From assembly GCA_021234155.1 (NCBI GenBank), contig JAJEKV010000062.1, positions 3,569,305 to 3,633,304 of the forward strand: 64,000 nt of DNA, given 5' to 3'. The position numbers were made by a program, and so were the translations under genes. The notes under the pieces were generated by a model that was not told the origin of the DNA, did not search any database, and was given only the letters and a program-made list of their open reading frames with translations. This document shows, piece after piece, positions 5,555 through 64,000 of the stretch. Each line of letters starts with the position of its first letter. Within the stretch, counting starts at the first letter, position 1. The stretch comes from Isoetes taiwanensis. Its lineage: Eukaryota > Streptophyta > Lycopodiopsida > Isoetales > Isoetaceae.

Positions 5555-5589
5555 GGGATATGGATACTCACTGAGAAGAGGCCACTACA

Positions 5590-27100: not shown

Positions 27101-28070
27101 TAGTAGTACATAAAAAGCGGTTTCCATATCAAGACCGGATATCATGAGCCAAACTTTTAGGGGAGTTTTGGTGGTTGGTTGTGTCTAGCTTTTGCAAGGT
27201 TGGTGATATTGCATATCCACAATGCAACATCCTCTTTTAATGTCACACTAGAAACGTGTGCCCGGCGATGTTGGGCATTGGTCATGGACGCTGCGTACAA
27301 TGTGTTTAGAGTATGCAATTCTTAGTATGTGCAAGGGAATGTTATCCAATATGATTGTTTATGTGATTGCATGTGTAGATGGAAGATGCTAATTGCATCG
27401 GAGGCATGGATGTTCATATTCAAAATGGGTGTAGTTGCGTATGATTTCGCATGTAAGGTTCATGGTGGGAGATGTTTAGGCATGTCTAGTAATATAAAAC
27501 CATTGTGTAGATAGCATTTTTAGTGTTTGTGGATCTTTCTGACAATCTCATATGCAAGTATATTTGTGGTTGCTAGTAAACATGTTTAATTTGTGGAAGT
27601 TAAAGGAATATGTAAACAAATAGAAACATCTACTTCGGTATAGTTTGTAAAACAAACAACTAAAGTAAATTTTTGTCATATGTACATCAAATATGTGGAG
27701 GTGAGAGAATGGGTAGATCAAATACTTAGGTACATTAATGTAGAAACCGACATGCCTGACATTAGTCATGGACGGTGGAATGGGTAGACGCATCAGAATT
27801 TGTAGGTCAAAAAGTCGTGAAATGTAAACGTGATCAATAGGTGTAATGGAGGGCCCGTTCGTGAAGGGTTTAGTGATGCGAGACATTAGTCATAACGATG
27901 GAATGTGAGGAATAATAAAATGCATTGTGTGCAATAGATAGATGTCATAGTTTAAAGTTTTCTTGGGATTTTTGGATATTTGGTATGTGTGGAAAGATGG
28001 AAGAAATGTGTGGGTATGTTCTTGGCGTGTGAACTCTTAACAATCTAGTCTAGTGAATTCAAGAGGATAG
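24151..28070. other. AT-rich half of array unit 1
   Basis: Apart from Helitron 3' ends this is anonymous AT-rich DNA. The longest frame (25880-26188) is not preserved in the other two units, so I do not call it a gene. Confidence 0.5.
27248..27276 (-). mobile_element. Helitron 3' terminus in unit 1
   Basis: Read on the minus strand, hairpin 27276-27260, the 8-nt spacer ACACGTTT, then CTAG (27251-27248) and a T. The stem tolerates two G-T pairs. The 5' end of this element was not found. Confidence 0.6.
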
Positions 28071-35700: not shown

Positions 35701-36690
35701 TTAGTATTAGTAGTACATAAAAGCTTGGGTTCCATATCAAGACCAGATATCATGAGCCAAACTTTAGAGGGGGAGTTTTGGTGATTTGGGTTTGTAATCT
35801 AGCTTTTGCGGTTGGTGATGTGCATATCAAACAATGCAACATCCTCTTTTAATGTCACACTAGAAGCGTGTGCCCTACTTCGATGTTGGGCATTGGTCAT
35901 GGGCGCGTACAATGTGTTTAGAGTAGTATGATTCTTAGTATGTGCAAGGGAATGTTATCCAATATGATTGTTTATGTGATTGGTAGCATGTGTAGATGGA
36001 AGATGCTAATTGCATCGAGGCATGTGGATGTTCATATTCAAATGGGTGTAGTTCTGGATGATTTTGCATGTAAGGTTCATGGTGGAGATGTTTAGGCATG
36101 TCTAGTGCATTATAAAACCATTGTAGATAGTTTTTTAGTGTTTTGTGGACTATTTGACACCCCATATGCAAGTGATATTTGTGGTTGCTAGTAAACATGT
36201 TTAATTTGTAGGAAGTTAAAGGAATATGTAAACAAAATAGAACATCTACTTCGGTATAGTTTGTAAAACAAACAACCAAAATAAATTTTTGTCATATGTA
36301 CATCAAATAGTGTGGAGGTGAGAATGGGTAGATCAAATACTTGGTACATTTGTCATCGTGTGTCAGGCGATGTGGGACATTAGTCATGGGCGTGTGGAAT
36401 GGGTAGGCGTGCACACTAGAATTTGTAGGTCAAAAGCTGTAAATGTAAGCGTATCAATAGGTGTAATGGAGGGCGGTGTGAAGGTTTAGTGATGGCTGAG
36501 CATTAGTCATAGCGGGATGGAATGCGTGGGAATAATAAAATGCATTGTGTGCAATAGATAGATGTCATAGTTTAAGGTTTTCTTGGGATTTTGGATATTT
36601 GTATTGTGTGTGGAAAGATGGAAGAAATGTGTGGGTATGTTCTTGCGTGTGAACTCTTAACAATCTAGTCTAGTGAATTCAAGAGGATAA
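32746..36690. other. AT-rich half of array unit 2
   Basis: Same content as 24151-28070 with many 1-3 bp indels. No preserved open frame. Includes the Helitron 3' end at 35860-35891. Confidence 0.5.
35860..35891 (-). mobile_element. Helitron 3' terminus in unit 2
   Basis: CTAG at 35860-35863 precedes, on plus, AAGCGTGT and a hairpin whose left arm is disturbed (GCCCTACTTCGATGTTGGGC against GCCCGACGATGTTGGGC in unit 3). The disturbance is a 3-base insertion and may be a consensus error. Confidence 0.5.
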
Positions 36691-44300: not shown

Positions 44301-44432
44301 GGTTCCATATCAAGACCAGATATCATGAGCCAAACTTTAGAGGGGAGTTTTGGTGGTTGGGTTGTGTCTAGCTTTTTGCAGGTTGACTGATGTGCATATC
44401 CCGACAATGCAACATCCTCTTTTAATGTCACA

Positions 44433-44461
44433 CTAGAAACGTGTGCCCGACGATGTTGGGC
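44433..44461 (-). mobile_element. Helitron 3' terminus in unit 3
   Basis: CTAG (44433-44436), 8-nt spacer AAACGTGT, then hairpin GCCCGAC-GAT-GTTGGGC (44445-44461, one G-T pair). Minus-strand orientation. Confidence 0.65.
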
Positions 44462-44935
44462 ATTGGTCATGGACGCGTACAATGTGTTTAGAGTAATAGA
44501 TTCTTAGTATATGTGCAAGGGAATGTTATCCAATATGATTGTTTATGTGATTGGTAGCATGTGTAGATGGAAGATGCTAATTGCATCGAGGCATGTGGAT
44601 GTTCATGTTCAAATGGGTGTAGTTGCAGATGATGTTGCATGTAAGGTTCATGGTGGAGATGTTTAGGCATGTCTAGTGCATTATAAAACCATTGTGTAGA
44701 TAGCATTTTTAGTGTTTGTGGACTATTTCGACACCCCATATGCAAGTGATATTTGTGGTTGCTAGTAAACATGTTTAATTTGTAGGAAGTTAAAGGAATA
44801 TGTAAACAAAATAGAACATCTACTTCGGTATAGTTTGTAAAACAAACAACTAAAGTAAATTTTTGTCATATGTACATCAAATAGTGTGGAGGTGAGAATG
44901 GGTAGATCAAATACTTAGGTACATTAAATACGTGT

Positions 44936-44952
44936 GTCCGACGATGTCGGAC
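44936..44952 (-). mobile_element. Second, older Helitron 3' hairpin in unit 3
   Basis: GTCCGAC-GAT-GTCGGAC is a perfect 7-bp stem. It is followed on plus by the same ACATTAGTCATGGACGTG context as the copies ending in CTAG, but its CTAG has decayed (TTAAATACGTGT). It lies about 500 bp inside the first terminus, so two related ends are stacked. Confidence 0.5.
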
Positions 44953-45260
44953 ATTAGTCATGGACGTGTGGAATGGGTAGACGTACTAGAATTTGTAGGT
45001 CAAAAGCTGTAAATGTAAACGTATCAATAGGTGTAATGGAGGGCCAGGTGTGAAGGGTTTAGTGATGGCGAGCATTAGTCATAACGGATGGAATGCGTAG
45101 GAATAATAAAATGCATTGTGTGCAATAGATAGATGTCATAGTTTAAGGTTTTCTTGGGATTTTGGATATTTCGTATGTGTGGAAAGATGGAAGAAATGTG
45201 TGGGTATGTTCTTGCGTGTGAACTCTTAACAATCTAGTCTAGTGAATTCAAGAGGATAGT

Positions 45261-46576
45261 AACGAATCCAAGTGGATGCATATGAGAGCTAATGTGATTC
45301 ATTGATGGCTCTTTTTTGTTAGTGAAATGTGTTCTAGAATGGTATTGAAGTCTTATTGGAATTTATAATCTTGCTTAGCAATATTGGTTCTAAAGGTTTT
45401 GCAACATACCTGGGATTGCACATGAAATGCTACAATTCAAACTTGCTTATAAACTCAATCTGCTTACATCTTATAGTAGCAATTCCGACGACTACAGAGC
45501 CATTTTGCAAACATGAATAGACCTACATTCTCTGTCTTGTCTTGCAAGCTTGCAGCAACTCAGAATGAAGCTCCAACTTATGCCATTTAGAATATCACAG
45601 CAGTGAGGATCAATAATCAAAAGCATATTCAACAACTCCAAACCGCCGCAACTCTAGAAGACTATACAACAAAATTTTCCATAATCTTCAAATGGTTGAG
45701 TAGGTCACAGAACATACAAAATCCAAGTTTTACAATGCCCAACCATATATGTACATGATGAGCAAGAATAACCTATGGCTTAACTAGACTTATTTGCTGG
45801 TGGATGCCATAAAGCATATATGCAAAAGCATCAGACCTGCACAACATAGGCAATCCAATTAGCTTAGATTATTTAGCCATGTACCTAATACTATAGCATT
45901 AACCATGGTGCAGTACAATCGATTTCATTTGATCCAGGCATTTCTATGATGCTCGGGGGTTTCACCATTAAAATTCCGTATCAAACATGTGCGTGACTGG
46001 TTAGGGTTTTTTTTTTTTGGCCTCACCCGTTCGCATACGGTCCAAAAATTATACGGGTTCACCACCATTGTTTCGGACGTAGTCGTTTAGGGGTGCTCTT
46101 GGGCGGGAACTCCTCACCCGCTTGATACTGTAGGGGTGCTTGAAGATCCGAAGCTTTGAATCGTAGGGGTCTTTCAAGATTATAGGGGTTTGGAATGAAC
46201 GTTTCTGGTTTTTTGAATGAAGGATTGGGGTAAACAATTTGGACGAAAACCAAGAAAACTATTCTCAAAACTTCTGCCTAATACCTCTTGCTTTAAGTAT
46301 CCAGCTAACAACAATGCAATCATCTCTGTCTATTGCAGCTAAGTGAAGACAAAGGGAATTTTACAAAGTTTCATATTCACGATTTGTTCACGGCAGCTTG
46401 CTTGTTCTTCAAGAAATTGTCTACAGCAATGAAAAGGTACTCTCCTTTGATGTATTTCCGGTTTTAGGCATCCATCTTCCAGACAAAAATGGTTCTCATA
46501 GCAATGCATTTTTGCTGAGATTTTGTTGTCTGGCAGGGACTTTTCATTGCTTCAAAATCACTATCTATTTATCCTT
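45261..46576. other. Anonymous sequence upstream of the transposase-like gene
   Basis: No gene recognised. At 45940-46220 a GC-richer patch repeats GTAGGGGTGCTT and GTAGGGGTCTTT, with a poly-T run near 46007-46018. Either host promoter or transposon end could lie here. Confidence 0.35.
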
Positions 46577-47056
46577 GAAGGTTCTTTAATCTTATGACAA
46601 CAATTAGAAGGTACTAACTGCTATAAATTTGCTGTCTAACAGGGGCTTTAGAACCGGCTTTTGAACCTCCAAAGTTTCTATATTGTATTCTTGAAGCTTC
46701 TTTTCTTGTATGCTACAATAACTAGAAGGTATTAATTTCTGTAATAATTCGAGTTTTAGGGATATGATAATAAGATTTAGGCATAGATATCTCCTCTTGC
46801 ATGCGGGCTTGTATGTGAAGGTTCTTTAATCTTATGACAACAATTAGAAGGTACTAACTGCTGTAAATTTGCTGTCTAACAGGGGCTTTTGAACCGGCTT
46901 TTGAACCTCCAAAGTTTCTATATTGTATTCTTGAAGCTTCTTTTCTTGTATGACAGTTGGCTACAATAACTAGAAGGTACTAATTTCTGAAATAATTCGA
47001 GTTTTAGGCATATGATAATAAGATTTAGGCATAGATATCTCCTCTTGCATGCGGGC
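46577..47056 (+). repeat. 240-bp tandem duplication just upstream of the transposase-like gene
   Basis: Copy 1 (46577-46808) and copy 2 (46817-47056) both run from GAAGGTTCTTTAATCTTATG to CTCCTCTTGCATGCGGGC and are nearly identical. Copy 2 has a short insertion after CTTGTATG. It is in the leader or first intron of the gene that starts at 47151. Confidence 0.85.
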
Positions 47057-47147
47057 AGAGATTATGTAAAAAATGCATTGATACTACTGCTTTAAGGTCT
47101 TTCAAGTAAGGTAATACTTCCTAACTCTCTCTTTCCATGATTTGTAG

Positions 47148-49158
47148 GAAATGGCATTCGAAACAAATATCGTTATATGCACAATTGATGGGAATGAGAA
47201 CTGCTCCGAGGTTGGCTTTGTGAAAGTGGGGCAGAATGCAAATTATGCCGATGTACGAAAAGCCATAGAGTTGGATGAGCTAGAAGGCTTGGAGGGTTAT
47301 GAGTTTGTATTCTTGGGAGAAAGGAAGCTTCCTTTGTCAAAACGACAAGAGGAAAGGTACAAAGTTACGGAAGAGGAAGTGTTTGTTCGAGTCACTGAAT
47401 GTCAAGAAGTTTTTCAGCCCTTGAAGAGGAGACGCCTCGTGATTAATGAGCTGCAAGAAGAGGAGGATATGGCTGCCACTGAGGTTGTAGATCAGACCCG
47501 AGGCAATGAGGAAAAGGCAAGTTTGAGTCTCGAGTGTGAAGGTAGGCTGCACTCCAAGTTTGCATCAAGGGCTCTTACATGTAGGTGGATCCACACTTAT
47601 AGAAAATACAAGACTAAGTTGAAAAGTCAAGGTAAGAAAGACAGGTTTGAGCTCATGTCTTCGGATGTCAATGGAGTGGGAGTGTTTAGCATTTGGTGCG
47701 TAGAATGCCAACTGAAATATGGAAGAGGAGGAGATGGCATGTTGTACAACTTCACCGCATGCCACATGGAATCAAAGGAGCACAAGCTCAATTTGCACCA
47801 GAATTTGCAAAGTAACTCACAAAGTGTTGTTATAAGCGAGGAAAGTGCCTCGAAAGATAAGTTGGAAAGTGAGATTATGGCTGAAAACAGGGCAGCAGTT
47901 GAAGAGTGCATGGCCACGAAAGTTGCTTCTTTTGTGGAGCAAAGTGGTGTCATGTTTGAGTTGTATAGGGACACCCTTAGAAGCTATGCAAACAAGGAGG
48001 AAATTTACATTTTATGTGTGGTTTGTCAGAGGTCTTTACTCCTCTTTCCGTCCAGAGGAGACGTGGTTGATAACATGAAGGAGCATGTAAAGCGTAGTAG
48101 ACATGCTCAAAAATCCATTACCAAAGAAAGGAAAGAGGAGGACAAGATGCATGAACAAAAGAAGCATGGAAGGCCTCGAAAGGAGAATGTGGATTCTTCA
48201 CAAAAGAGCATGCTGTCATTTTTCACGCGAGGTATCACTCAATTTTACATTTTCTAAAATCTTTTTTTGTACTTTCAAGAATCCTTTTATTGCATTCAAT
48301 TCACTATGTCAGGCCCTTATAATCTGATTTTCAGCACATTACTTCATGGCATCTTTTCTTTTGTATAGTGTTGAACTTCCATTTTTAAAGTATAGAGACT
48401 TATGGCATGTTTGCTATGCCGCAGACCAATGTAATGAAGCTGGACCAAGCCACCCAAATGAGACTTCAAGTAAGTAAAGGTCACATGTACCATTAGTTCT
48501 ATTAGTAATTTGCCTGGTTCTTTGTTTGTTGTTAGGCTGTTAGTTTGGATTGTAGTAGTTCATTGTATTTCGCTCTCTTTCTCATTGAAATTTAAATAAA
48601 AAAACAATACACAGGGACTATGCATCTGGGATATCTATGCTGGGGTTATTGGCAACTAACATATAGATATGCATCCAAGACAAGAGATTTGAGACCATTC
48701 TTAGATGAGCAGGCCTAAATTGGTATTGTGAGCCAGATTTGCGTCAAGAGTTCACGGTAGATGGCGAGATACTTAAGATCCAAGGAACAATTAGGCACGT
48801 CAAATGTTTGAGAGTGAGTGCAGGAGCAATGTTTCCAAACTTCCAATGTTCTTTCTGCACTGCCATACCAAAGGAAAGAGACTTCCGTATGAGAGTTTAT
48901 AGACAAAGTGAGGAAAAAGTAGAGCGAGGCTTGAGGAACACAAAATCCAGATTGAGAGTTGATTACTTGACAAGGTTCGAGCTGCGCAACCTTGCCAAGG
49001 AAACATTCCATGAGAATAGAAACTTGAGAATGGAATTGAGATTGAGCAAAGTGAGGACGCTTGCATTGTCAGTAAAGGTAAGATCTCTTCGAGAAACATT
49101 GCTTGAATCTATGAAACGTGGTGATGTGCAGAAGTTTTGCATGGATATTAAAGAGGCA
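47148..49158 (+). pseudogene. Transposase-like protein, N-terminal half (BED-like fingers, AT-hook, PIP box), cut by a Helitron
   Basis: ATG at 47151 follows a TTGTAG acceptor. Exon 1 runs to 48230 and its donor is G|GTATCA. Residues 1-85 resemble a ubiquitin-like fold (VICTIDGN ... YEFVFLGERKLPL ... EEVFVRV). Two zinc fingers share one spacing: C183-x2-C186-x18-H205-x5-H211 and C289-x2-C292-x19-H312-x5-H318, BED-like. GRPRK at 340-344 is an AT-hook and QKSMLSFF at 351-358 is an exact PIP box for PCNA. A probable exon 2 (48425-48469) encodes QCNEAGPSHPNETS in phase. Exon 3 starts near 48615 after ACACAG (LGYLCWGYWQL), shifts frame near 48715 and continues NWYCEPDLRQEF ... GTIRHVKC ... DFRMRVYRQ to DIKEA at 49158. 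There it is interrupted; the gene resumes in frame at 57295. The role as a transposase is inference. Confidence 0.7.
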
Positions 49159-49187
49159 CTAGAAACGTGTGCCCGGCGATGCCGGGC
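49159..49187 (-). mobile_element. 3' terminus of the 8.1-kb Helitron
   Basis: CTAG occupies 49159-49162, the spacer AAACGTGT 49163-49170, and the perfect 7-bp hairpin GCCCGGC-GAT-GCCGGGC 49171-49187 (plus-strand reading). These bases interrupt the host frame, which continues as chance residues ALETCARRC after DIKEA. Confidence 0.85.
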
Positions 49188-49839
49188 ATTAGTCATCGAA
49201 GTGTGGAAGGGACAGATGCAATAGACTTTGAATTATTATTGTTTCTGTCCACTTTCAATGTATCAAACTTGTAGTAAAAGGGTGCTCGATGATCCTGAAC
49301 ATTATTCAAAGAGACAGACATTGATGCACGTGTGATTTGATGTGATTCAATACTATTTTTTTTTGTAACTTAAAAATCCTTCCTGATAAGGTAGAACCTG
49401 ACAACTCAACCCTTTGGGGTCGCCTCCAAGTTTAAGAGCTCTTGATGCAAAGTCATAACATCCATCTTTTGTCCATTCTCTTTGTGTTGGTAATTGTGTC
49501 TTAGTTTGTTAAATCATTAAATAATGGTTAAGGTAGGGGGTGAGGGAAAGTGGCAAATGGTCATTATGAGAAATAAAGCATGGATGTATCTTCTCTTGTT
49601 ATTAAGAATAAGTGTGTATTATCGCTTAAGTGTGTATTATCGCTTCTTAACCGTTAGATTAAGTGTTTTTAAAAAAAAATTCAATGGTGCACAAGTCAAG
49701 ATGCTCTCTCCTGCAATCCTGTGCGTCGATTCTGAGTCTTTTACAGGTCAAACTTGGGGTGTTTGACCTGCACATAAAATACACACAATATACATCAGAC
49801 CATGCTGTATTATGGCAAGAAATACAGTCCTGTGTATTA

Positions 49840-49965
49840 TACATGTTAAAGAGGACCTGGGGAATCGAACCCCAGTTAAACCTGAACCTGAACTCAAATA
49901 CCTGTACAGAAACTAGGAGTCTGAGGAATTGAACCTCAGTTACTAGCCATTACTCAACCAAGCAT
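49840..49965 (-). mobile_element. SINE-like tRNA modules inside the Helitron
   Basis: On the minus strand, box A-like TGGTTGAGTAATGG (49960-49947) is followed by CTGAGGTTCAATTCCTCAG (49939-49921), a T-arm with a paired stem. A second T-arm, CTGGGGTTCGATTCCCCAG, follows at 49875-49857. No complete cloverleaf or acceptor stem is evident and box A to box B is short (about 25 bp). A tRNA-derived SINE or duplicated T-arm module is more likely than a tRNA gene. Confidence 0.45.
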
Positions 49966-50039
49966 AAAGAGGCTTCACAGAGTGGAGCCTCGTTATGCAA
50001 GGGGGCCAAAGCCCTCTAAAGCTGAAAGGTAGCGTCAGT

Positions 50040-51149
50040 AACAAGATACATTTGAATAAAATCAAAAAAGATGTCAATATCATTCATCTACCACAGCTGT
50101 CAAGAAAGAAGAACAGAAAAGTTAACATAAAACTGCAAGTCAAGCGGGCTGCAGGGGATCAGATCCCACAGCTCACACCAAAGAACAGCCCTGACATCTG
50201 ATGGCAAACAAGAGGAAGGATTCAGAAGTACACGCCAAGCAGCCCTTACTCTATGCTCATTAATATGAGCAGAATTAGAAGGGATGATCCAGGAGCTGCT
50301 GAGCGTATATTTAGAAGACCTCAACATCTTACATACAGTATAAGTTAGACTAGGTGTATGCCTCCGTCCGCCATGGTAAAAAACAAAGTGAGCGATTTTA
50401 TTCATCGATTTGTTATCAAGAACACACAATCCTTTAGTATCACACGCCCCCATCTAAGGTATAGATCTTTACCCCTTTCAACCATTCCCTCGGATACATT
50501 GTACGATGACAAGTATAATGCACTTTGCCGATATCCTTCATACAATACCGACCATGCCCTCAAAACAATGGAGCTTGGTGTTTTTAAGGCCTTGCAGATC
50601 AAAAACGCCTGTGGGCTTGGGCTTCCGATTAAAAGCGATTTAATAGCCTCATTCACGCTCTTTGGATTTCTAAAACGACATCTTAAAACGGCTGTACATG
50701 CGGATGGTCTTGAGGACCCTCTTTCTAATGCCCGCCCGACCGGTGCATTTAGAGTTGCGTAACAAAACAAGGCCATCATAAAATGATCTTGGCACATCTT
50801 GGCGAGAAAAGACCCCGTGACGTAAACATCAAGCCAATCGATTCATATTCAAATCCACAAGTGGAACGTATCGGGTTGCACGGCCCGGGCCGATGGGAAG
50901 GAAGCATCACGGGGCTTCTAGCAAGCGACCCATCACTTTCGCTTCGACGCAGGGGACATGGCAACAAGAACAAGGGACCAAGGCGGCCAAAAAAAACAAG
51001 AAGAAACGATGGATAGGGCGCAGCACCTTCAAAGGCCGATGAAGATATGTGAGCAAGATCATCGGCTCCATGCCTATCCTCTGCGCCAAATTTAGAATCG
51101 CCCAGCTGCGCTCTCCTCCAGCAAAATAGGAAGGCAAGAAAGGAACCAT
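50040..51149. other. Coding-like block of unknown family, strand undecided
   Basis: Both strands are unusually open. On minus, 51149-50907, 50973-50776, 50797-50402 and 50453-50100 overlap into one possible protein with two or three frame changes (words such as FEYESIGLMFTSRGLF, FLICKALKTPSSIVLRAW, VRAVLWCELWDLIPC). On plus, 50358-50762 (134 codons) and 50783-51016 (78 codons, basic C-terminus KGPRRPKKTRRND) are open. One strand must be a shadow. I recognise neither. The block is more GC-rich than its surroundings and lies inside the Helitron, so captured coding sequence is a reasonable guess. Confidence 0.3.
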
Positions 51150-51655
51150 CGAAATAAAACTAAACCCTAAAATACCCTTCCTCGGCCAAACTCAGGTATT
51201 TTATCAGTATTTATACGGTTTTAATACAAATACATTCCAAAAACCTTTATAAATCTTATGTAAGAAACATACGACATTTCAACCAGCAGACATTATTAAG
51301 AATAAGTCGCATATTTTGTGCAAATTCTACGTTGGTAGAAGAGCCAACAAAGTACTAAATGTGTGTGAATAGGAAAGGTTAAATGCTTGAATGCCCCGTA
51401 AGAAAGAATAAAATTACTGTAGGGTGTTTAAAAGCAACCATAGCAGTGAGAAGAAACCCTCCGAATATTTATATACAAAGACAATGTTCTTTTTCATCTT
51501 AGCCTGTTATGCAAATCCTCAGTCGTCAACCAAATACAAACTTAATGAAATATTAAGAATCCGTTCACAAACACCATGGTGTTTTCCTAATTCAAGCTTA
51601 CATCTCTTCTGTATCATTCAATGACTTGCATCTGATGAACTCAACTTCTACAGAA

Positions 51656-54329
51656 TCTTCTTTTTTATTTTGGGATGTTGTTGGGTTCCGTGCCAAAGGG
51701 AACGCCGCATCTTACGCCGCATGCGGCGTTCCCTTCCAGTTTGCGTTTTTCCTTGAGTTCCCTCGCGGGATGTTGGTTGCTGGCATTCAATGTGGATTTT
51801 GAATTCTCCAAACAGAGGAGGCAGAGGAGGCATTCAATGCCGATTTTGAAGCAGCGTGTACAAGGTAGTGCGGTGTGGCTATGGCCTTGAGGATATCTCT
51901 GCCTCCTCTACAAATCTAGGGTAGACTTCGTTATTCGGCCCCCCCCATCGGAAATCTGTCGGAATCATTTTTAGCCCCTATTTTTGGTTTCAGACTTATA
52001 GGTTTCAAGACGGGTTTAGGGTGCAGGAGAATCGAATTGCAGCTTTCAGGACGGATTTAGGGTGCAGGGGGAGTCGATGCACAGGTTTCAGGACGGATTT
52101 TAGGGTGCAGGGGAGTCGATTTAGAATCGGAGGACGGATTTTAGGGTGCTTGGGTTCCTCTTTGGGGTTGATCCATTCCCTTTTTTTTTTTTCGTTACAG
52201 TGTAGTTTCTGGTTCAATCCATGGATTTCTGGCTAAATCAGTGGGTTTCTGGTGTAGATTCGTGTGTTTCTGGTTGAATCTGAGTATTCTGGTTGAATCT
52301 GAGTATTTCCGGCAGTATTCTTGGTTTCCGGCCTGTTTTCCGATGAGGGGGGCCGAATAACGAAGGTGTCCCCAAATCTATGGTATTTCTCTTATATTCT
52401 TCTCCAGGCTTCTCTTCTGCCCGCTCATGACTAAGAGAGTTCTTTATTTATCCATGTTTGCACAGGTTATGGTGGAGGTTAGAGCATTTCGGCGTTCTTG
52501 CAACCTATTAATTGATTTTTGGAACGCTACCAGTTAACTTCTCGGGCGGTGCATCTTGGTTTCATGATGGAGGGCTGGGTTTCAATAGACTCGGCTTCCT
52601 TGGTTAAGGTTTTTGTTAGAAAGTAAGACGGGTATGAAGAGGGTTATTTGCATTTGAGTAAATCAAAAGGAGCTTAGAGGTGCGACGGTGCCACATCCTG
52701 TATTTCTCTGATCCTAAATTTTCCACCATTTTCTTTTGCTCATTCCATCTCTTACATTTTTTTCCTCATTCCATCTCTAAGAGGAGTACCTCCTTTCCGG
52801 TTGTGGATTCAAAGGGATAAAATCAAAGATCCTGGCGGCTTATTCTGTCTACATAGGCTCGGTTTTTTTCTGTTAACGTAAGTATTTTCCTTCGGAGGAA
52901 ATCACCAGCTTTTCTGTGCCTTGGAACTGCATCAGAACGTGTGAATCTATCTGCGCCTTCTTATCAAAATGTGTGTCGTTTCTGTGCCTTCTCTCAAAAT
53001 GTGCGAAGCCATTTGCACATCTTTTTCTCAGGTTTTCTACGGGAGGAAACTCAGGTCCTATATTAGCTTATCCAAGGCAGGCATGTCCATCGGCATAGGC
53101 AAGTCCATCGAAAGGTATTTCTTATCCAGTTTTCTAAAGCAGGGAAATTGGGCCCCGTTCTCAGGTTTAGTCTTTATCAGGTTTTCCAGTGTAGATCCAG
53201 GGCAGGCAACACGTGTTGATTACTCCACGTTTCCTGTATTGCTTATTCCGGACCTGTTCTCAGGTAGAAAGCCATTTGTCTAATCCATGTTACAGACCAT
53301 TTTACAGATCGTTTCCATGTTACAGATCGTTTAAGGTAGTCTTTACAATGGTAGTCATTAAAGTCTTGGCTTCATGCACTCCTGCACTGCATAAATCCTG
53401 ATTTTGCAAAGGATGAGATGGCCTGGAATGGTTTGAATGTGGTAAAAATTTGGCTCTTATTCTTATGTTTTTTCGTTTTGGGTTATTTTGTTAGGTTCTA
53501 AGACAGTGTATGAAGCGTGGGCATACAGACTTTGATGCAGGCATCCTCTCAAACTCAGGTAATAATGTGCTACTTCATATTTGCATTTTTCTCATTCAGC
53601 TACCTGAAAATATAAAAATATTATATAAATGGTCAAACATTAAGGAAGCATGCTTTTCTTTTTCCTTTTTTATGTACACTGGGTTTTAGAAAACACGATT
53701 TAGAAGTATGCTGGTTATGTACTATTTTGCCTCCAAAAGCTTCACCATTACACCTTCTTGCTGGACTTAGACTGCTCTTCTTTGTGTCTTGAACTTAAGA
53801 CACCTTCTGTTGCTTAAAAGCTGTACAATTTTTTTGCTGTAAGCAGACAGCTGTGAAAGTAGAATTAGTTTCGGCTTTTTCTTTTGAAACTGGCATTCTG
53901 GAAGGATTTTTATGGATTTCTGGTCATTGAATTGCATTTTCAGGGCTGTGTTTCGATTTGCTGCATCCTTTGATTCCTGTTTATGCAGCTTGCTGCAATA
54001 TCTTGCTCTTCTGATGCACATGTTTGGAATATATGAGGTTCTTACAACTATCAGAAATGGTGGCCCAACGATCTAGGGGGCTGCCAATTCATCTTAGAAC
54101 TGCAAAAGCATGACAACTATATAAAGAGCTTACAAAATAGCTATCAGGTCTTTCATTTGAGGCAGCAATGTTGAAGCAGGTAAGTAAGCTTAGGGTTTTT
54201 AAATCAGTCCAATGTTTTATGGTTCCTTTTGTGGCTAATGCATATATTATGGTTAACCGGTTGTGGCAAGAACAGGACAACAAGATGACTGGAGATAGAA
54301 GAAATAACTGAAGTTCAATAGAGCTCTTG
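51656..54329 (+). repeat. Left palindrome arm: inverted second Helitron 5' end
   Basis: Plus-strand 51656 starts TCTTCTTTTTTATTTTGGGA after an A, exactly as the minus-strand start at 57294. Homology to the reverse complement of 55101-57294 begins precisely at that TC and continues to AATAGAGCTCTTG at 54329. Without the 462-bp MITE plus duplication the arm is about 2.2 kb, equal to the other arm. The copy has no 3' hairpin of its own before the arms meet the spacer. Confidence 0.85.
51919..52372. mobile_element. 454-bp MITE with 33-bp TIRs and 8-bp target duplication
   Basis: TIRs read GGGTAGACTTCGTTATTCGG, then CCCCCCCCATCGG, and inversely GGGACACCTTCGTTATTCGG, then CCCCCCTCATCGG, differing mainly at bases 4-8. 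CAAATCTA flanks both sides (51911-51918 and 52373-52380). The opposite arm near 57030-57040 has a single uninterrupted CAAATCTA (as TAGATTTG), a true empty site. An 8-bp duplication points to the hAT superfamily. The interior has four degenerate copies of a TTTCAGGACGGATTTTAGGG-type minisatellite (about 52000-52150). Confidence 0.88.
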
Positions 54330-55100
54330 ATGACTGAAGTTCAACAGATATGTCTATTCAAACAGTCTGATTTATGATGGTTGTTGGACAGTGACGTAGT
54401 GACGTAGCTTTGGAGGGAGTCAAAGGACGTTTGCAATAAACCTCCTTATCTTTGCTTTCAGCTCTTGATTGTTTTGCAGTAATCAAACAAGTCACCTTAT
54501 TCCCATTTCTGTTTGCTGCAGAACCCACACTCCTAAGTTCCTTCTATCTCTAAATTCATGGTTATTACGACAGGAAACTTTTTAACAGTGTTTGACGCAA
54601 TGGCACAAGTTGATAATGCATTTACGGAGAAGATTTCGGGTTGCCTGTCTTTGTTTATGTCTAAGAAAGCCATTCAACACCACCTGTTGTACTCAGCTTG
54701 GTATGTCTCCACAATCAAACCTTTGTTTCTGTCTAAGAAAGCCACTCAAACACATGTTGTATTTCGTTTGGTATGTCTCGACAATCATGTTCCGAAATGG
54801 CATGTGATTGATCAGGGATTTGATTTGTATTATGGCAATTATATTGATGAATATGATTTCACCCATAGCATATGGAGCACATTCTCCATGGCATATATGG
54901 GGCATGTGATTGATCATTTATTTGATGATGAGCACGTTTCACCTAATGCATGCATGCCACTTCTGATTATAAGGGATTTGAGCAATGGCGCCCACCTCTC
55001 ATTATAATATTAATTCACTTAACTTATCTTTGAAATGAGGGGCCTTGCAAACAAACATGTAATTATGTAAGGTTATAGAGCATAAAGATCAATCTTTACC
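54330..55100. other. Spacer (loop) of the palindrome
   Basis: About 770 bp of unique sequence separates the two Helitron arms. Most of it is covered by the 54558-55007 frame. A GTGACGTA pair near 54390-54410 is a short local duplication. No Helitron 3' hairpin is present. Confidence 0.6.
54558..55007 (+). CDS. Hypothetical 149-residue frame in the palindrome spacer
   Basis: Open from ATG at 54558 to a stop at 55005-55007. It is the longest frame in the Helitron interior. It contains an internal repeat: LSLFMSKKAIQHHLLYSAWY then LFLSKKATQTHVVFRLVC, matching a DNA duplication of about 70 bp (54645-54715 and 54720-54790). HVIDQGFDL and HVIDHLFDD form a second pair. No known domain, signal peptide or membrane segment. 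It could be a decayed captured gene fragment or chance. The translation has a plausible mixed composition but no support beyond openness. Confidence 0.3.
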   Translation: MVITTGNFLTVFDAMAQVDNAFTEKISGCLSLFMSKKAIQHHLLYSAWYVSTIKPLFLSKKATQTHVVFRLVCLDNHVPKWHVIDQGFDLYYGNYIDEYDFTHSIWSTFSMAYMGHVIDHLFDDEHVSPNACMPLLIIRDLSNGAHLSL

Positions 55101-57294
55101 AAGAGCTCTATTGAACTTCAGTTATTTCTTCTATCTCCAGTCATCTTGTTGTCCTGTTCTTGCCACAACCGGTTAACCATAATATATGCATTAGCCACAA
55201 AAGGAACCATAAAATATTGGACTGATTTAAAAACCCTAAGCTTACTTACCTGCTTCAACATTGCTGCCTCAAATGAAAGACCTGATAGCTATTTTGTAAG
55301 CTCTTTATATAGTTGTCATGCTTTTGCAGTTCTAAGATGAATTGGCAGCCCCCTAGATCGTTGGGCCACCATTTCTGATAGTTGTAAGAACCTCATATAT
55401 TCCAAACATGTGCATCGGAAGAGCAAGATATTGCAAAGAAGTCGCATAAACGAGAATCAAAGGATGCGACAAATCGAAACACGTACGAAAATGCAATTCA
55501 ATGACCCGAAATCCATAAAATCCTTCCGAATGCCGGTTTCAAAAGAAAAAGCCGAAACTACTTTCTACTTTGGTATGTCCTTACAAAAAAAAAATTGTCG
55601 GCTTTTAAGCAACAGAAGGTGTCTTAAGTTCAAGACATAAAGAAGAGCCGTCTAAGTCCAAAGAAGAAGGTGTAATGGTGAAGCTTTTGGAGGCAAAATA
55701 GTACATAACCAACATACTTCTAAATCGTGTTTTCTAAAACCCAAAGTGTACATAAAAAAAGGAAAAAGAAAAGCATGCTTCCTTAATGTTTGACCATTTA
55801 TATAATATTTTTATATTTTCAGTGGTGAATGAGAAAAATGCAAATATGAAGTAGCACATTATTACCCGAGTTTGAGAGGATGCTCGCATCAAAGTCTCAG
55901 GTATGCCCACGCTTCATACACTGTCTTAGAACCTAACAAAATAACCCAAAACGAAAAAACATAAGAATAAGAGCCAAATTTTTACCACATTCAAACCATT
56001 CCGGGCCATCTCATCCTTTGCAAAATCGGGATTTATGCGCGCGGGAGTGCATGAAGCCAAGACTTTAATGACTACCATTGTAAAGACTACCTTAAACGAT
56101 TCGTAACATGGAAACGACCAGTAAAATGGTCTGTAACATGGATTAGACAAATGGCTTTCTACACGAGAACAGTCCGGAATAAGCAATACAGGAAACGTGG
56201 AGTAATCAACACGTGTTGCCCCGCCTGGATCTACACTGAAAACTCGATAAAGACTAAACCCGAGAACGGGCCCAATTTCCCTGCTTTAGAAAACCGGATA
56301 AGAAATACCTTTCGATGGACTTACTATGCCGATGGACATGCCTGCCTTGGATAAGCTAATATAGGACCTCGAGTTTCCTCAGAGAAAAAACGAAAAAGAT
56401 GTGCAAATAACCCGCATTATTTTGAGAGAAGGCACGTAAACGACACACATTTTGATAAGAAGGCGCAGATAGATTCACCGTTCGATGCGGTTCAAGGCCT
56501 GAAAAAGCCGGTGATTTCCTCCGAAGGAAAATACTTACGTTAACAGAAAAAACCGAGCCTATGTAGACAGTCAATCGGGATCTTTGATTTTATCCCTTTG
56601 AATCCACAACGGAAAGGAGGTACTCCTCTTAGAGATGGAATGAGGAAAAAAATGTAAGAGATGGAATGAGCAAAAGAAAATGGTGGAAAATTTAGGATCC
56701 CGGAGAAATACGAGGATGTGCACCGCCGCACCTCTAAGCTCCTTTTGATTTACTCAAATGCAAATAACCCTCTTCATATCCAGTCTTACTTTCTAACAAA
56801 ACCTTAACCAAGGAAGCCGAGTCTATTGGAAACCCACCCTCCATCATGAAACCAAGATGCACCTTCCGAAGTTAACCCGGTAGCGTTCCAAAAATCAATT
56901 AATAGGTTGCAAGAACGCGAAATGCTCTAACCTCCACCATAACCTGTGCAAACATGGATAAATAAAGAACTCTCTTAGTCATGAGCGGGCAGAAGAGAAG
57001 CCTGGAGAAGAATATAAGAGAAATACCATAGATTTGTAGAGGAGGCAGAGATATCCTCAAGGCCATAGCCACACCGCACTACCTTGTACACGCTGCTTCA
57101 AAATCGGCATTGAATGCCTCCTCTTGCCTCCCTCTGTTTGGAGAATTCAAAATCCACATTGAATGCCAAAGAACCAACATCCCATGAGGGAACTCAAGGA
57201 AAAACGCATAAGCGGAGGAGGGGCATCTTGATGCGTAAGATGCGGCGTTCCCTTTGGCACAGAACCCAACAACATCCCAAAATAAAAAAGAAGA
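55101..57294 (-). repeat. Right palindrome arm: 5' end of the outer Helitron
   Basis: Reverse complement of 51656-54329, minus the MITE. From about 55410 onwards nearly every CAG or CTG in the left arm appears here as CG, CGG, CCG, CGA or similar, while the bases between are almost unchanged. From 55101 to about 55400 the two arms agree well and CAG/CTG are retained. See the finding on trinucleotide-specific discordance. Confidence 0.88.
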
Positions 57295-59780
57295 TATTCT
57301 TGTGGTAAATTTGAAGGCAAGCCTGCATTGTGGAATTTTCTAACTGACCTTGTGCAGAACATATATATTAAGGCCTGGCCATAATAAGCGGTACAAGCAA
57401 ACAACAAAAGAGTTGTTTGAAACAATAAAAATTTGGGGAGGGAGAAGGATGCACGACTTCTTGTCTATGAACTTTGGAGGTCCAAGTGGCAACAACAAAA
57501 GGCGGTCCCATTGGCAAGACAATTTAGCTACAAGGCTGGAATAAATGAGGAGACATTTGTATACTTGGCAAAGATTTATTCCAATCATGTAGGGAAATGT
57601 GGGTTGATTCATGGAAGTGTACCAACTATCGTGGCCGAAGATGAGACCGTAATCAAGAGGGTAGTCCAATGGTATGCTAGAGATGATAGTTTGGTAGGTT
57701 TTTGTGGTAGAAAAGAAGATCATTCTTGTATCACTGATTTCGTAGTTCATGTTGGGAATGGGGAGGAGGGCTGCAAAACTATTGTTGATGCATTTGAGAT
57801 GAATGTGGTTGCACATTATGCCCGTGTGCTTATCGTGAACCCATTATATTCCACGCTTTGCCCAAGCTCGTTTGTTGTCCATACAATTGACATGTAATAG
57901 GTTTGACCATAAGGCCGTGAGATGCCAATGGGATGAAATAGCTTATTTCTGGAATTTGCATTTAATAAGTGTTTTAGGTCCCCTAATTGGACACTCTTCT
58001 GATGGAGATGCATGTCGGAGGGCTTGTATGTTAGAAGACTACACTACTTGAAAGAAGCGGGAAAAAGTTTGCCATTCCATGGGAAGGATGGGTGTTTTGT
58101 TGCCATGAATAAAGACAAAGATACATGGACTCCATGATCAAGATTTCATCCATAATGGGAAGAAGGCGATCAATCCCGATTAATGCATCTCGGAGGCTTT
58201 ACTTGGGTAAAAGAACTTCGTCACACTTAATGACGTGTGGCACGTTTTCCACTTTTCAAGGTGAACATGGTCTTCAAATCGGTGACATGCAAAAGAAAAG
58301 GCAAAATTGGCGGGCTGCCCAGGATTGCCTCTCAAGAGTTCAAAGCGTGCTTGAAGAGGCTCGTGATCCAAAACATAGTAATCCAATGCGTCACGTTAGG
58401 AATGAGACTTATCTCTACGTGGTTTCCCTCTATATTGACATATTCCTCTCTCCTCACATGGATCTATGGAACCGGATAAGAGCAGCCAGCAACGTGTCTT
58501 TCTTCTTGAGCTAGGCGTGTTGCTATCTATTTAGCTTTATAATTATGGTACCGATTTGCTCTTGTCATATTGCAGGTTATGGAGACTTTGGATATCAAAA
58601 CACGAGACACATTGTTTGAAGACAAACTTCATTAGTCGTGAGACGTTTCTGGACATTCAGCTTTCTTGCCACTTTGTCGACTTACTCATAAAGTTTTTTA
58701 GAGATTACTGTAGGGAGCTTGCTGTCCCATTGGATGCCACAGGGTCAGATGCATGCGAGAATTTCTTCTCAAAGATAGGTGGAATGGTAAGGAACGAGAG
58801 ATCCTACACTGGGGCTGATGTACTTGAAAGTGCAAGTGCTCTTAACCGAGTGGCTGAATTTAAGTCACTTGGAAGCTTGCTATTCCCTGCAACCCAGGTC
58901 AAGCAAGAAAACATTTGGCAAGTACTCGAGAGGAAAGTGGATGGTGAAGACAATGAGTTAAAGTGTGATCTGGCAGATTACACACTTATAGGGACAGATG
59001 CCATGATAGTGGATGCACTAGAGGCAGGACTTAGACATGCAAAAGTTTTATGTGCACAATTAGGCATCACTTGTGAGGAAGGTGGAGAGGAAACTTGGTG
59101 GAGCAAACCTTGGAAGCACGAAGAGTTTTTCAACAAATTTAGAACAAGAGAATGATGGTGTTATAACTATCAATACTGATCTGCCCAATGATGTTACATC
59201 ACAACTCGAGCTAAGGCATACCTTAGACTCCATGGTGGACGAGGTAGAAGCACCATCTCTCAGAAAGATTGAAAGAAATGTCACCATTGATAATAAACCT
59301 GTTTGCAAAGGCACTTTGGTCAGCCAACTAAATGGTAATCCATGGCTGTCCAAAGACAGATTGACAAAGGTCAAGCTGCAGTCTATTACAAGCGTGGAAA
59401 ACAAGTTAATAAATGCAGCCACCTCTCTTGGAATTGGATCAGACTGTGCCATCTACTTTGAGATGGATTCCAGAAGCAAGAAAGGGCAAACCCGTGACAG
59501 AAATAAGGACAGAAATAAGGAGGACGTGATGCAAGTGTGGTATTTGGGAAGGGTACTTAGTATGCGCAGGAAACATGGTAGGGCATGGAAAGAAACTAGA
59601 GAGCCGGTAGACCTGGTTAACAGACCCCCATACTCCATAGAGCATAATTTGGCCTGGTATAATGAACATAAAGCAGGTAGGAGGACGTGGTTCACTTTTG
59701 ACCTATCAGATAGTCAGTCAATCTCACTAGACTCTGTAATAGCACTAGCATGTTTTAACGTACAACCCAGACAATGGTAG
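57295..59780 (+). pseudogene. Transposase-like protein, C-terminal half with a D-D-E-like core
   Basis: Host sequence resumes in frame at 57295 (YSCGKFEGKPALWNFLTDLV) and stops at 57382. In the next frame it reads RYKQTTKELFETIKIWGG, then after a further shift FSYKAGINEETFVYLAKIY and VAEDETVIKR (57631-57660), GFCGRKED and VVHVGNGEEG. A shift near 57890 gives LTCNRFDHKAV and GPLIGHSSDGDACRR (57977-58021). Broken frames follow with LQIGDMQKK and NETYLYVVSLYIDIF. A likely intron ends ATTGCAG at 58575, then FISRETFLDIQLSCHF and TGSDACENFFSKIGG (58738-58782). A shift near 59130 leads to VWYLGRVLSMRRKH and TWFTFDLSDSQSISLD, ending at 59780. EDET, SSDGD and SDACENFF occupy the places of the D, D and E blocks of P-element/hAT-like transposases, with about 120 and about 230 residues between them. 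Five or more frameshifts make this copy inactive unless they are consensus errors. Confidence 0.65.
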
Positions 59781-60951
59781 ATACCAGCTTCATGAGCATG
59801 ATATGATGCAATTTCAAAACTTTTTGGCTGATCAGAAAAAAGGTCTCTATATTATGTTGTTTTTGGCTTCGTTGCATTGCTGAAATTTCTGCTCACAAAT
59901 CATGTTTTTCATTGCAGGAAATAAAGGCAAGGCAAAGATTGTTTGAAGATCATTAGTCATGAGACGTTAGTCTGAAACATGGGATGGAAAACAGATTGCA
60001 TTTGAGATACATAGTTATAGGTATTTCTAGTTTCATATTATGGAGGTTCATATTTCTAGTTCTTTGGGTTCTTTGGGCTACACATGTCTATGGAGTATTT
60101 TGGAAATGGATTGCAGGCTGAACATTCTGCAAACATGAAACTTTTCACATCTTTTTCAAACTGACAGTACTAGTTTCCTTTTTCCAAAAAACTAAGTGAA
60201 GCATTTTGTTCTGTTAATGGTACACGTTGGTGACACAAGGCTTCAGATTTCTAACATGACCATAGTTTCTGGAATTCAGCCAGCCTATTTTTGTTTACTA
60301 TCTTGATCTATTGTTTAAGAGGTTGTATATCAGAAAAGAAAAATGAAAAAACAATTTTGGAAATGAAGGTCTTGTTTTAAGAAGTGCATTTCCTTTAATT
60401 GATTATGCTCATTTGCTTTGCTTAGGTTTCTTTAGCCTAAACGTGTAATGGAGCTATCCCCTTAAAAACAATGGTTTAGTTAGCAAAGGTTTAGTTTGCA
60501 AAGGTTTAGTTTATTCGATGGTTTATTCAATGCTTTAGTTTGCAATGCTTTTGTTTGCAATGGTTTAGTTTGCAGGTAGTTTAGTTTGCAATGATTTGTT
60601 TGAAGTGCTTTTGAAATGGTTTGTGAAATGGTTCTTATCTTCCATCATTCTAATTTCTAGCTGACTGTATATCTGCTTGGGATTTGCTTGTAGCAGATAA
60701 ATAGGAAGTACATAGAAGACATGACAAGACAAAACGATCTGATATTGCAAACATGTAGGTCTGATACAATAAACTATCTGTTAACAACGAGTTTCAGTGT
60801 TACATAAACCTTGTATTTCAGATAAAACCAGAAACTGTATTTCAGAATTACCATGTCATATTGACAATAAAGCATGTTAACAAAAGACCTTGTACAGAAA
60901 ACTTCGGCCTTTTTACAAAAAACTGATTTCTGTGCATCCTTAATATCCGAT
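59781..60951. other. Gene-free flank with a small minisatellite
   Basis: No gene recognised. At about 60470-60600 GGTTTAGTTTGCAA(A/T) recurs seven or more times with 13-17 bp periods. A TTCATTGCAG|GAAATAAAGG near 59918 looks like a splice acceptor and might belong to the end of the preceding gene. Confidence 0.4.
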
Positions 60952-61272
60952 CTAACATAAAATAACATAAAAAAGCTTAGTACTCAAAGGATTCATAGCG
61001 TTTTCAGCGTTAAAAGTGGGCATTTTCAGAAGAACACGAAGGAGAATCCCATCAGCTTCCATATTCAGTTGCAACAGACGCTTTTCTTCGGGACCAACAC
61101 GATCGACCCACTTCTGAACTTTATCTGAAACTTTGGCTCCTTGTTCCTGCAATCGAACCACCTCCAAGGCAGAGAATTTTGCAACAACAGTCATTTTCCT
61201 GCCCGGATGGCTGGAAGAAGAGGACTCTTCCTCAACTTTGGGCTTCCGGGCAGTATATTTCAGCCTGGCCAT
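60952..61272 (-). CDS. Small hypothetical protein with a histone H3-like N-terminus
   Basis: 106 codons from ATG at 61272; an upstream in-frame ATG at 61293 would add seven residues. The start MARLKYTARKPK resembles the H3 tail (MARTKQTARKS pattern), followed by an acidic/serine stretch EEESSSSS, then a predicted helical region FSALEVVRLQEQGAKVSDKV and EEKRLLQLNMEADGILLRVL. There is no histone fold after the tail-like segment. The G-x-KVSDK and LL-x-LL words faintly recall plant BAG domains, but I would not assign it. Codon use looks normal, and a plausible TATA box and CCAAT lie upstream. No introns are needed. Confidence 0.45.
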   Translation of the reverse strand: MARLKYTARKPKVEEESSSSSHPGRKMTVVAKFSALEVVRLQEQGAKVSDKVQKWVDRVGPEEKRLLQLNMEADGILLRVLLKMPTFNAENAMNPLSTKLFYVILC

Positions 61273-61367
61273 GGAGGAAGATAGGAAGATCAAACCGGGA
61301 AATAGGCGCTTGAAATCTCAGAGGAAGGGATGAAGCCGGAATGAAGAATCTGGAGACAAGTTCTTCT

Positions 61368-61393
61368 CTTATAGGAGCGTCCAAGCGTCCAAT
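61368..61393 (-). promoter_or_regulatory. Candidate promoter of the small minus-strand gene
   Basis: TATAAG at 61373-61368 (minus) lies about 96 bp upstream of the start codon at 61272, and an inverted CCAAT box (CCAAT on plus at 61389-61393) is 16 bp further up. A 5' leader of roughly 65 nt would result. Confidence 0.4.
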
Positions 61394-64000
61394 CAAAGGG
61401 CTTCATGAATGCCAATTATGACCATAATGTTGCATGCAAAATTGGGGCTCGAAACCCGAGCCCCCCTAGCCATGCAATAATAAGATTCTCATAGATTTAA
61501 TTTTTTGTTTCATAGATCTAAATATCCCGAGGCATATTCTTGCCCATATTCTAATATGCCATAATTCTAATATAGCCATATATGCCCATAATACATATAC
61601 CTCAATACGTATAGGTATACCATATGTTGGGTGTATTATGCCCAATATACCCCAAATATAACATTGAGGTATACCATACGTATTCTTTAACGTATACCCT
61701 GGGTATATCCTACCCATTAACACTAGAGTTGTCCCGGGGACCATTCCTGATCCATGGACCAGAACTGATCCAGTTGACCCACTGCCACTTAAACCATTAT
61801 ATATGAGAATAGAAGTTTCAATTTGACAATATATCACTGCCATATCAATCTTTACTTGGTTCTTAATGATCTTGGAGAATCTCACGACTAATGAACTCAC
61901 CTATATGTTGTGGTGATTGTCCAAATTTTAGAGAATTTGGCAGTTTCGCATCCGGTTTAACGCATTCTTGAGTTTTCCTACCATAAGCAGACCTAAACCT
62001 TGTTAACATTGGAAGTGCTTGCCTATATATGATAGAACACATTGATTTGTATGTTTTTAGCTTTGGTTGCTATCATCTAACATCCGTGGAAGTCGCCAAA
62101 GCCCATTTTATTAAAAAATGCTGCTTACGTTTTAGGAATTATTTCTCTCTTATTATTACGAGTTTTGACTTAATTCTTGTGGCTATGAGTTGCTAACTAT
62201 ATGAAGTACAATGTCATGTTTTTTTGGAGTGTTCATAAGTTATATCAACTTCCAAATTTAAAAGAAAATTTCTTATGCAGAATTTTGGACAAAATTATAT
62301 GTTAAAATCCTCCAAAATCACCATCTATAAGTATTACGAGGGTAATGAATGATGCATTCTACTTATATCTACATAGAAAATTACTCTATCAACTTGCATA
62401 TAGTGTAATTAGGGTTTGACCATGCAATTAACTAGATTTAAAGATGATGTACAGCCACAGGATTAACACATTAGAGGTTAAAAAGTTGAGTTAATTCCAA
62501 AATTATAGGCTGAAGATTGAGCATTTACATAGCTAATGATATTTATTGATGAATGAAAGTGAAGATCTTGAAGTTTAACTATGAGAATCAATAGATAGAT
62601 CACATGACATTTGATGCGTCTTGCTCAGCTTTGTAGAAAACACGCTACATTTCTCCAAATAAGCCTTCCAAATGATTGAATAATATGACAAGGGACATAT
62701 ATATAGGTCCACTATGTAGGTTATGTGGCCTTCTTGCAAAAAAATAAGGAGAAACATAGTTATTTCTTACTAGAATAAAACTGGTATATCTATTGCTGCT
62801 ACAAAGCATTGAAGTTTTACTAAGATAATGTTACATGTAGGTCATCTTTCATATACACTATATTTTTCACGAATGCGGGCCTTCCTTTGTAATATAACTC
62901 TGAATTTTCACGTTGAAATAACATATTATTTGGAAGATGCGAATATAATTAAGCATGGACCATTTATGGTCCATAACTATGCCAATTGTATAAAGCATAT
63001 ATCTCTCTCTAGCCTTATCCATTTTGTCCCTATAATGATACCATAGTTTCTTACATTTAATAATATAATTTTTGAAAGGTTTGAGTGGAAGTCCATATAG
63101 ATTCAATTGGTGAATAAGTACCCCATAAATTCACAGTTGTTTGTGCTTAAACATTGCCCTCAAATTATGCAAGCTCGTCTAACTAATCAATTTTATCCTA
63201 TAGAGAACCGTACGCATAATCTCTATTCCAAAGTTGGGATCAAAATTGATTAAGATGTTGTCTCTATTAATTTTTAAACTTCCAGTCCTGTGGACCAATA
63301 ATGGTCTGTAGTGGAATTGCACATGGCAGTCTAACTTGACTTTTTATGGTCATAAACTTTCATATTTTTCTTTAAACTTTTTTGCATTGATTTTATAACA
63401 TGGGACATTTTGAAAGTGTGACTTTTCAAAGTCACATCTCGAGGCATAAATCTAGAATAAACATAGAAGACATATTTGAAGCTAATGCTGTGAAGATAAA
63501 TCCAAATCTCAAGGTTATGCTCAACAAATATTTTCATTACTCAAGGTAATCAGAAGCTATTCATATCCCAAAATTCAACTTGAGATCGATTAACATAAGG
63601 AAGTTATTTATTTAAATGGACCTATGAACCAGTAATGGGCTCAGGTACAGAAACCTTTCTTGATTTCTTGTGACTATGTCTTTTGCGTTTTTAATGAGTT
63701 TGTTTTTCCATTGGTTTCATACCATTTTGAACTTTCATATTATGATTTTTTGGAGGACATCATAGAGTAATTTTTGCTCTATATGCGAAAATATTAATCA
63801 TTATTACAGCTTCCCTCAAATTGAAATAAAAAATGATAACTCAAATATCAAATCCAAGGCCAGCCAATATTTTTATGGGATGGAGGAACTTGTCAACTGC
63901 TTATATATCAAATATTAGCTCAAAATGCATTTCCTTGTAAAAGTTGTTGTATTTAAACTACAACTGCCTTCTGGGAACCATAATTGGTTCAAGAGCGTAA
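61394..64000. other. AT-rich anonymous sequence
   Basis: No gene recognised. At 61540-61720 the words GGTATACC, CCTCAAT and ATTGAGG recur in both orientations, giving a TATACC-rich imperfect palindrome. The rest contains only short chance frames. Confidence 0.4.

Follow-up and report, generated by a model that had tools for sequence, protein, structure and literature searches.

A 64,000-nt stretch of contig JAJEKV010000062.1 from Isoetes taiwanensis (the window; positions below are window coordinates) carries a transposase-like gene that a first-pass annotation had placed at 47148..59780. The gene is found there, but the element to which it belongs is larger and runs from 45952 to beyond 61272 (Table 1). 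We conclude that the gene very probably encodes the transposase of a DNA transposon that moves by cut and paste, is of the P-element type and has two genes; the copy in the window is defective. The protein family, the predicted folds, the copies with their terminal inverted repeats (TIRs) and 8-bp duplications, a motif resembling a PCNA-interacting protein (PIP) box, the second gene (open reading frame 2, ORF2) with its N-terminus and a large insertion were all identified by computation. The second gene, the insertion, which is Helitron-like, and a BAH-like domain at the end of the transposase were absent from the first-pass annotation.

Table 1. Features of the transposon copy and of the sequences inserted into it (window coordinates)
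Feature	Position	Strand	Remarks
5' TIR CTCGGGGGTTTCACC	45952..45966	+	74% over 66 bp to 5' end of C1040; 94.4% over 881 bp from 45954 to C1044
Two tandem copies, about 240 bp each	46576..47056	.	5' part of element
First coding exon	47151..48231	+	open frame; 96.6% DNA identity to C1044 over 47058-49158; relatives P0003, P0005, P0007
Ubiquitin-like fold	47151..47405	+	residues 1-85
Finger 1, CVEC-x18-H-x5-H	47697..47783	+	in 14 relatives three ligands invariant, one nearly so
Finger 2, CVVC-x19-H-x5-H	48015..48104	+	in 14 relatives first Cys and both His invariant, second Cys variable
AT-hook-like GRPRK	48168..48182	+	GRP present in many relatives
PIP box QKSMLSFF	48201..48224	+	fits Qxx[ILM]xxF[FY]
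Second coding segment	48627..49158	+	Cys-rich module, coiled coil, start of helical part; tblastn to P0001
Helitron-like insertion, 8,136 bp	49159..57294	-	5' TC at 57294; 3' GC hairpin and CTAG at 49159
Large inverted repeat, 5.6 kb	51655..57295	.	within insertion
Nested MITE-like element, 454 bp	51919..52372	.	8-bp duplication CAAATCTA; one arm only
RNase H core with helical insertion, C-terminal region	57295..59780	+	several frameshifts in assembly
Catalytic D1, D57640 in AEDET	57640..57642	+	beta-1; aligns with P0002 D269, strand 264-272
Catalytic D2, D58001 in GHSSDGD	58001..58003	+	after beta-4; aligns with P0002 D388, after strand 382-387
D-x-x-E block, E58757 in SDACENFF	58748..58759	+	aligns with P0002 D618-E621, helix 618-631
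BAH-like domain	59424..59762	+
ORF2, 106 aa, start MARLKYTARK	60952..61272	-	antisense near 3' end of element
Last base similar to C1044	61720	.	C1044 runs 297 bp further to its 3' TIR

The transposase and its relatives

The first coding exon, whose splice ends were judged by eye, encodes a ubiquitin-like domain, two C2H2 fingers, an AT-hook and a PIP box. In the second coding segment relatives are matched in two frames that join at 48709. We searched for related proteins with the translated window pieces joined in order (994 residues, of which residues 360-990 were scored) and obtained 19 relatives at E<=0.01; the top match has 52% identity over 74%. With the alignment of these 19 as query, the family profile brought the total to 109 relatives, since 100 proteins reached E<=0.001 and 10 of these were already among the first 19; a search of proteins with an N-terminal alignment gave 5 matches, two of them new. 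The motifs AEDET, SDGD and DQDxxH and the adjoining columns are invariant or nearly so across the 19-sequence alignment. All motifs that the first-pass annotation had named are present where it put them, and they are beyond chance occurrence because they lie within one protein family.

Named sources among the relatives are the liverworts Calypogeia fissa, Riccia sorocarpa and R. fluitans, the fern Adiantum nelumboides and the sea spider Nymphon striatum; the 'Seg' genes among them presumably come from Aurelia. Pattern matches in viral contigs (21) and in prokaryote genome contigs (52) yielded no confirmed relative. Two Nymphon striatum proteins, P0086 and P0107, carry a precomputed Pfam label PF21787. 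In P0086 core fragments are repeated, perhaps in a fused or misassembled gene model.

The predicted ubiquitin-like start is borne out by fold matches that are modest yet consistent, and matches of the exon model are confined to residues 1-87. The fingers had been labelled BED-like; their spacing is compatible with this label, although Pfam gave no zf-BED match in the window pieces or the 19 relatives, so that the label is no more than a possibility. A PIP-like motif is conserved in the family. Among the 22 relatives with 40 or more residues ahead of the CWG landmark, 19 carry the pattern Qxx[IL]xx-aromatic-aromatic (all except P0001, P0023 and P0106), while the 16,172 residues downstream of this landmark contain no match to the pattern. 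The window octapeptide fits the strict pattern, as do 5 of the 19 PIP-bearing relatives, the other 14 having W at position 7. In the genome itself the motif is kept in 10 of 12 sequences (11 copies plus the window), ending in FF in the window, C1044 and C907 and in YF in seven.

The catalytic core

The predicted structure of the relative P0002 has an RNase H fold with one aspartate in beta-1, the second after beta-4 and the glutamate in a following helix. After beta-5, helices spanning residues 435-604 precede the helix that bears the glutamate (618-631) and form a helical insertion. The earlier proposal of an RNase H-type DDE transposase with three catalytic residues and a helical insertion before the E thus holds in the predicted structure of a relative. 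The structural alignment to 6p5a covers residues 142-655, and the predicted core fold is that of the P element transposase of Drosophila (6P5A, 6PE2), which with THAP9 is the closest known system, at 14% identity. The same annotation had suggested a distinct DDE superfamily; since the catalytic core is P-type, we do not regard the family as a new catalytic superfamily. The fold match to RAG1/RAG2-like and Transib proteins is much weaker.

The Pfam family PF21787 (TNP-like) scores 20.8 bits in P0013, under its cut-off of 24.6, and nothing rose above threshold when Pfam was run on the window pieces. A viral fold library gave nothing at E<=0.001, and the family profile retrieved only a GCN4 coiled coil (E 1.5) from the PDB sequences. 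The C-terminal core piece found no match among PDB sequences; the BAH-like part gave 15, the best at E 0.13, with no BAH protein by name. Likewise, the BAH-like domain shows no sequence-profile match to the plant BAH readers EBS, AIPP3 and ORC1b.

A hAT-type transposon would also combine fingers with 8-bp duplications, and the helical insertion would then be the hAT one. Among the Pfam matches of the 19 relatives at E<=10 there is no hAT family, neither for the core nor for the C-terminal dimerisation domain, and we regard this reading as highly improbable. Nor is the protein a P element transposase of the familiar build. No THAP domain was matched in the window pieces (E<=1) or in the 19 relatives (E<=10); instead a ubiquitin-like domain, C2H2 fingers, an AT-hook, a PIP-like motif and a BAH-like domain are added to the core. 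Since the THAP domain was not found, we assign the family to a THAP-less, P-like group and not to the classical P elements. The THAP domain has been described as restricted to animals (PMC7776569). Further differences to the P element and THAP9 are the presence of a second gene, the liverworts and the fern among the hosts, and the length of the TIR, which is 31 bp in the P element and about 15 bp here.

Copies in the genome

The first-pass annotation had proposed to look for homologues in many copies and for terminal repeats and target duplications at their flanks, and these exist. In the 1.66-Gb, 1,110-contig assembly P0001 gave at least 73 matches, several of them without a stop inside the matched core; 68 of 1,229 candidates were scored, so that the count is a lower bound, and a few matches are fragments of a single copy. 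Ten copies were retrieved with about 10 kb on either side, and C1044 was added as the eleventh copy with flanks. Three of them (C952, C1059 and C1095) share 94-95% identity over about 7.0 kb and cease to match at the same points. The element ends are CCCGGGGACTTCACC and, inverted, CCCGGGGGCTTCACC. Both ends could be located in 7 of the 11 copies and not in C1052, C1073, C1029 and C907. All seven elements are flanked by 8-bp duplications, six perfect and one (C1059) with a single mismatch, and the two TIRs of each, about 15 bp long, are identical at 11 to 15 of the 15 positions. Octamers drawn at random from the same sequences agreed in 14 of 200,000 draws.

These data bear on the possibility that the gene descends from such a transposon but has been domesticated by the host. 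Several copies have long open core frames, which would suit domestication, as would the extra chromatin-type domains. Yet the many dispersed copies, the TIRs and 8-bp duplications of the seven elements examined at both ends, and a window copy that is split by an insertion and whose 3' end was not found all argue for a mobile element, and we consider domestication very unlikely.

The window copy, its insertion and its frame changes

The TIR of C1044 begins at the place that matches the 5' TIR of the window copy, whereas a search for the 3' TIR of the window copy gave nothing above control. A scan for TIRs and target-site duplications at the window gene, made when the ends were still unknown, had returned 4 weak candidates, where three shuffled sequences gave 1, 0 and 1 with an equal best score (11/15), and was discarded.

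The core is split by the segment 49159-57294, which is best read as a Helitron-like insertion. It has a 5' TC and a 3' hairpin followed by CTAG, in line with the CTRR of Helitrons, and it sits between a host A and T without duplication, the frame being open across both flanks. C1044, 96.6% identical upstream (47058-49158), crosses the insertion site uninterrupted and thus represents the empty site. Because C1044 lacks the segment and the ends are of Helitron type, an ancestral intron was rejected.

Several repeats accompany the insertion. Each arm of the large inverted repeat starts at a Helitron-type 5' TC end, identical in the two but oppositely oriented, and the repeat suggests one Helitron inside or against another. 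The miniature inverted-repeat transposable element (MITE)-like sequence in one arm has imperfect TIRs containing CTTCGTTATTCGGCCCCCC, and its ends are unlike those of the P-like element. A short dispersed repeat around ACGTGTGCCCGGCGATGCCGGGC, found at 49157, 44431, 44922, 27246 and 3051, corresponds to the 3' hairpin end of a Helitron-like family.

Compared to the relatives, the region 57295-59780 contains about eight frame changes, six of them within 57295-58540. The locus was assembled a second time on contig C113 (412400-416900, L078), as a haplotig or duplicate. The two versions differ at 1 position in 59781-61745 and at 114 in 57295-59780 (79 substitutions and 35 gap columns), and so uneven a spread of differences, in a locus assembled twice, suggests consensus error. 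True decay of an old copy may account for most of the frame changes, and we give this a little less than an even chance. The frame changes near 57364, 58050 and 58250, and one near 58535, are common to both contigs and may be real, and stops occur in many other copies. Those near 57515, 57865 and 58110, however, are absent from C113, which has C-terminal frame changes of its own where the window stays open, and C1044, with a single frame of 518 codons that stays open through the insertion site and most of the core, also argues against decay. In the neighbouring repeat arm 49 of 78 CAG/CTG triplets are affected against 324 of 2,141 other triplets, which speaks against decay, while only 20 of 115 window-C113 differences have a CAG/CTG of the C113 sequence no more than 3 nt away, which speaks for it. 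These triplets are scarce at 57295-58540 (observed/expected 0.42), with equally low values elsewhere in the window. Between 55100 and 57294 the arms differ systematically at CAG/CTG, a pattern that methylated CHG sites might produce by interfering with base calling. The description of the gene as decayed stands for the insertion and the unfound 3' end; of the six frame changes in 57295-58540, it may apply to the three shared by C113, the other three being absent there.

The second gene

ORF2 was found by tblastn in 12 of 18 copy sequences, in some of them broken. Of the six without a match, C908 and C1029 were covered over 20 kb, while the 2.3 kb available for C1055, C1066, C1042 and C1007 might miss the gene. 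The genome holds at least 150 ORF2 matches (150 of 788 candidates scored), including the window and its C113 double, and by eye 138 of the 150 begin at residue 1. In a set made up of the window and five ORF2 copies selected as long and open, the ratio of nonsynonymous to synonymous changes (dN/dS) was computable for 11 of 15 pairs, four being saturated; it was 0.125-0.39, plus 0.555 for the near-identical pair C996/C907. ORF2 is apparently under purifying selection, as judged from these coding sequences.

The N-terminus of ORF2 resembles that of histone H3. Among 40 N-termini, taken from matches beginning at residue 1 and hence biased toward kept starts, K4 is present in 40, A1 in 39 and R2, T6 and A7 in 38 each, with synonymous codon changes underneath; position 8 is R/K in 34 and position 9 K/R in 38. 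L062 and L063 start with MARTKVTARKS, which matches H3 (ARTKQTARKS) at 9 of residues 1-10. The initial methionine before alanine should be cleaved in cells, freeing the H3-like end. The tail may contact H3 readers or enzymes, a possibility that we hold tentatively and at somewhat less than even probability. About as probable, and likewise just short of even, is the view that the N-terminus is simply basic, serves nuclear import or DNA binding, became H3-like by convergence and touches no histone reader or enzyme. The resemblance spans just 9-10 residues and went unscored by phmmer against PDB chains; T3 occurs in 7 of 40 sequences and Q5 in none, with L/I usual at position 3 and Y/V/F at 5, and C952, C1040, C907 and C1061 each deviate at one or more H3-like positions. 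Convergence fits less well with the conservation of A1, R2, K4, T6 and A7 over synonymous changes, with the near-complete match of L062 and L063, and with the fact that among 3,931 ATG-led frames in the sequences examined one frame other than ORF2 reaches 5/9 H3 identities and none goes higher. With HMMER, ORF2 gave one match at E 2.3 among the PDB sequences in one search and none in another, with no histone chains listed; a motif of this length would not be expected to score. Pfam on ORF2 gave no match.

Other features of the window

A repeat of about 1.27 kb occurs three times (44000-45269, 35425-36699 and 26820-28073), the copy at 44000 sharing 93.3% and 92.0% identity with the other two. 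Frames on the minus strand at 4065-5584 resemble a plant cytochrome P450 in their motifs. Rfam at gathering thresholds gave no match in the window.

Discussion

How such an element might work we infer from fold and position, and this applies to catalysis, to DNA binding and to the contacts of the transposase with PCNA and chromatin. The zinc modules and the AT-hook would bind the element ends and the coiled coil would pair transposase subunits. DNA cleavage and rejoining, which leave the 8-bp duplications, would be the task of the P-type RNase H core (D57640, D58001, E58757) with its helical insertion. Where DNA is being replicated, the PIP box would dock the transposase on PCNA, while chromatin would be read by the BAH-like domain. 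The second gene, antisense near the 3' end, encodes a small protein with an H3-like N-terminus.

It is conceivable, although we rate it somewhat short of an even chance, that this P-type transposon encodes both halves of a chromatin code, namely a PCNA-docking transposase that includes a BAH-like reader, and a partner that imitates H3 (A1, R2, K4, T6, A7, R8, K9). The ORF2 tail, possibly methylated by the host at K4 or K9, could then be read by the BAH-like domain of the element itself to build or control the complex. Alternatively, the tail might lure host silencing enzymes away. The action of ORF2 as an H3 mimic is speculative. Compared to RAG1/RAG2-like and Transib systems, the candidate BAH-like reader would here lie within the transposase and the H3-like tail on the partner. 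Pogo, Tigger and Lemi1 have a Tc1/mariner-type core that is unrelated to the core described here. Their PCNA-binding transposases likewise contain the PIP box Qxx[ILM]xxF[FY] (PMC5371812).

The architecture looks new, with THAP absent and with a ubiquitin-like start, fingers, an AT-hook, a PIP-like motif, a BAH-like end and an H3-tailed second gene. Among the top-ranked results of a literature search, with Repbase reports and most subscription journals outside its scope, there was no plant P-type transposase of such make-up and no transposon-encoded H3 mimic. P elements are known mainly from animals. A THAP-less P-type family that is multi-copy in a plant, with open core frames in several copies and perfect target duplications, and has liverwort, fern and animal relatives would revise the age of the superfamily and what is needed for end binding. 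P-element insertion near replication origins has been noted (PMC7776569), and the PIP box offers a testable mechanism for this reported link. If functional, a selectively maintained H3-like tail beside a BAH-like reader would represent a novel means by which a transposon handles chromatin.

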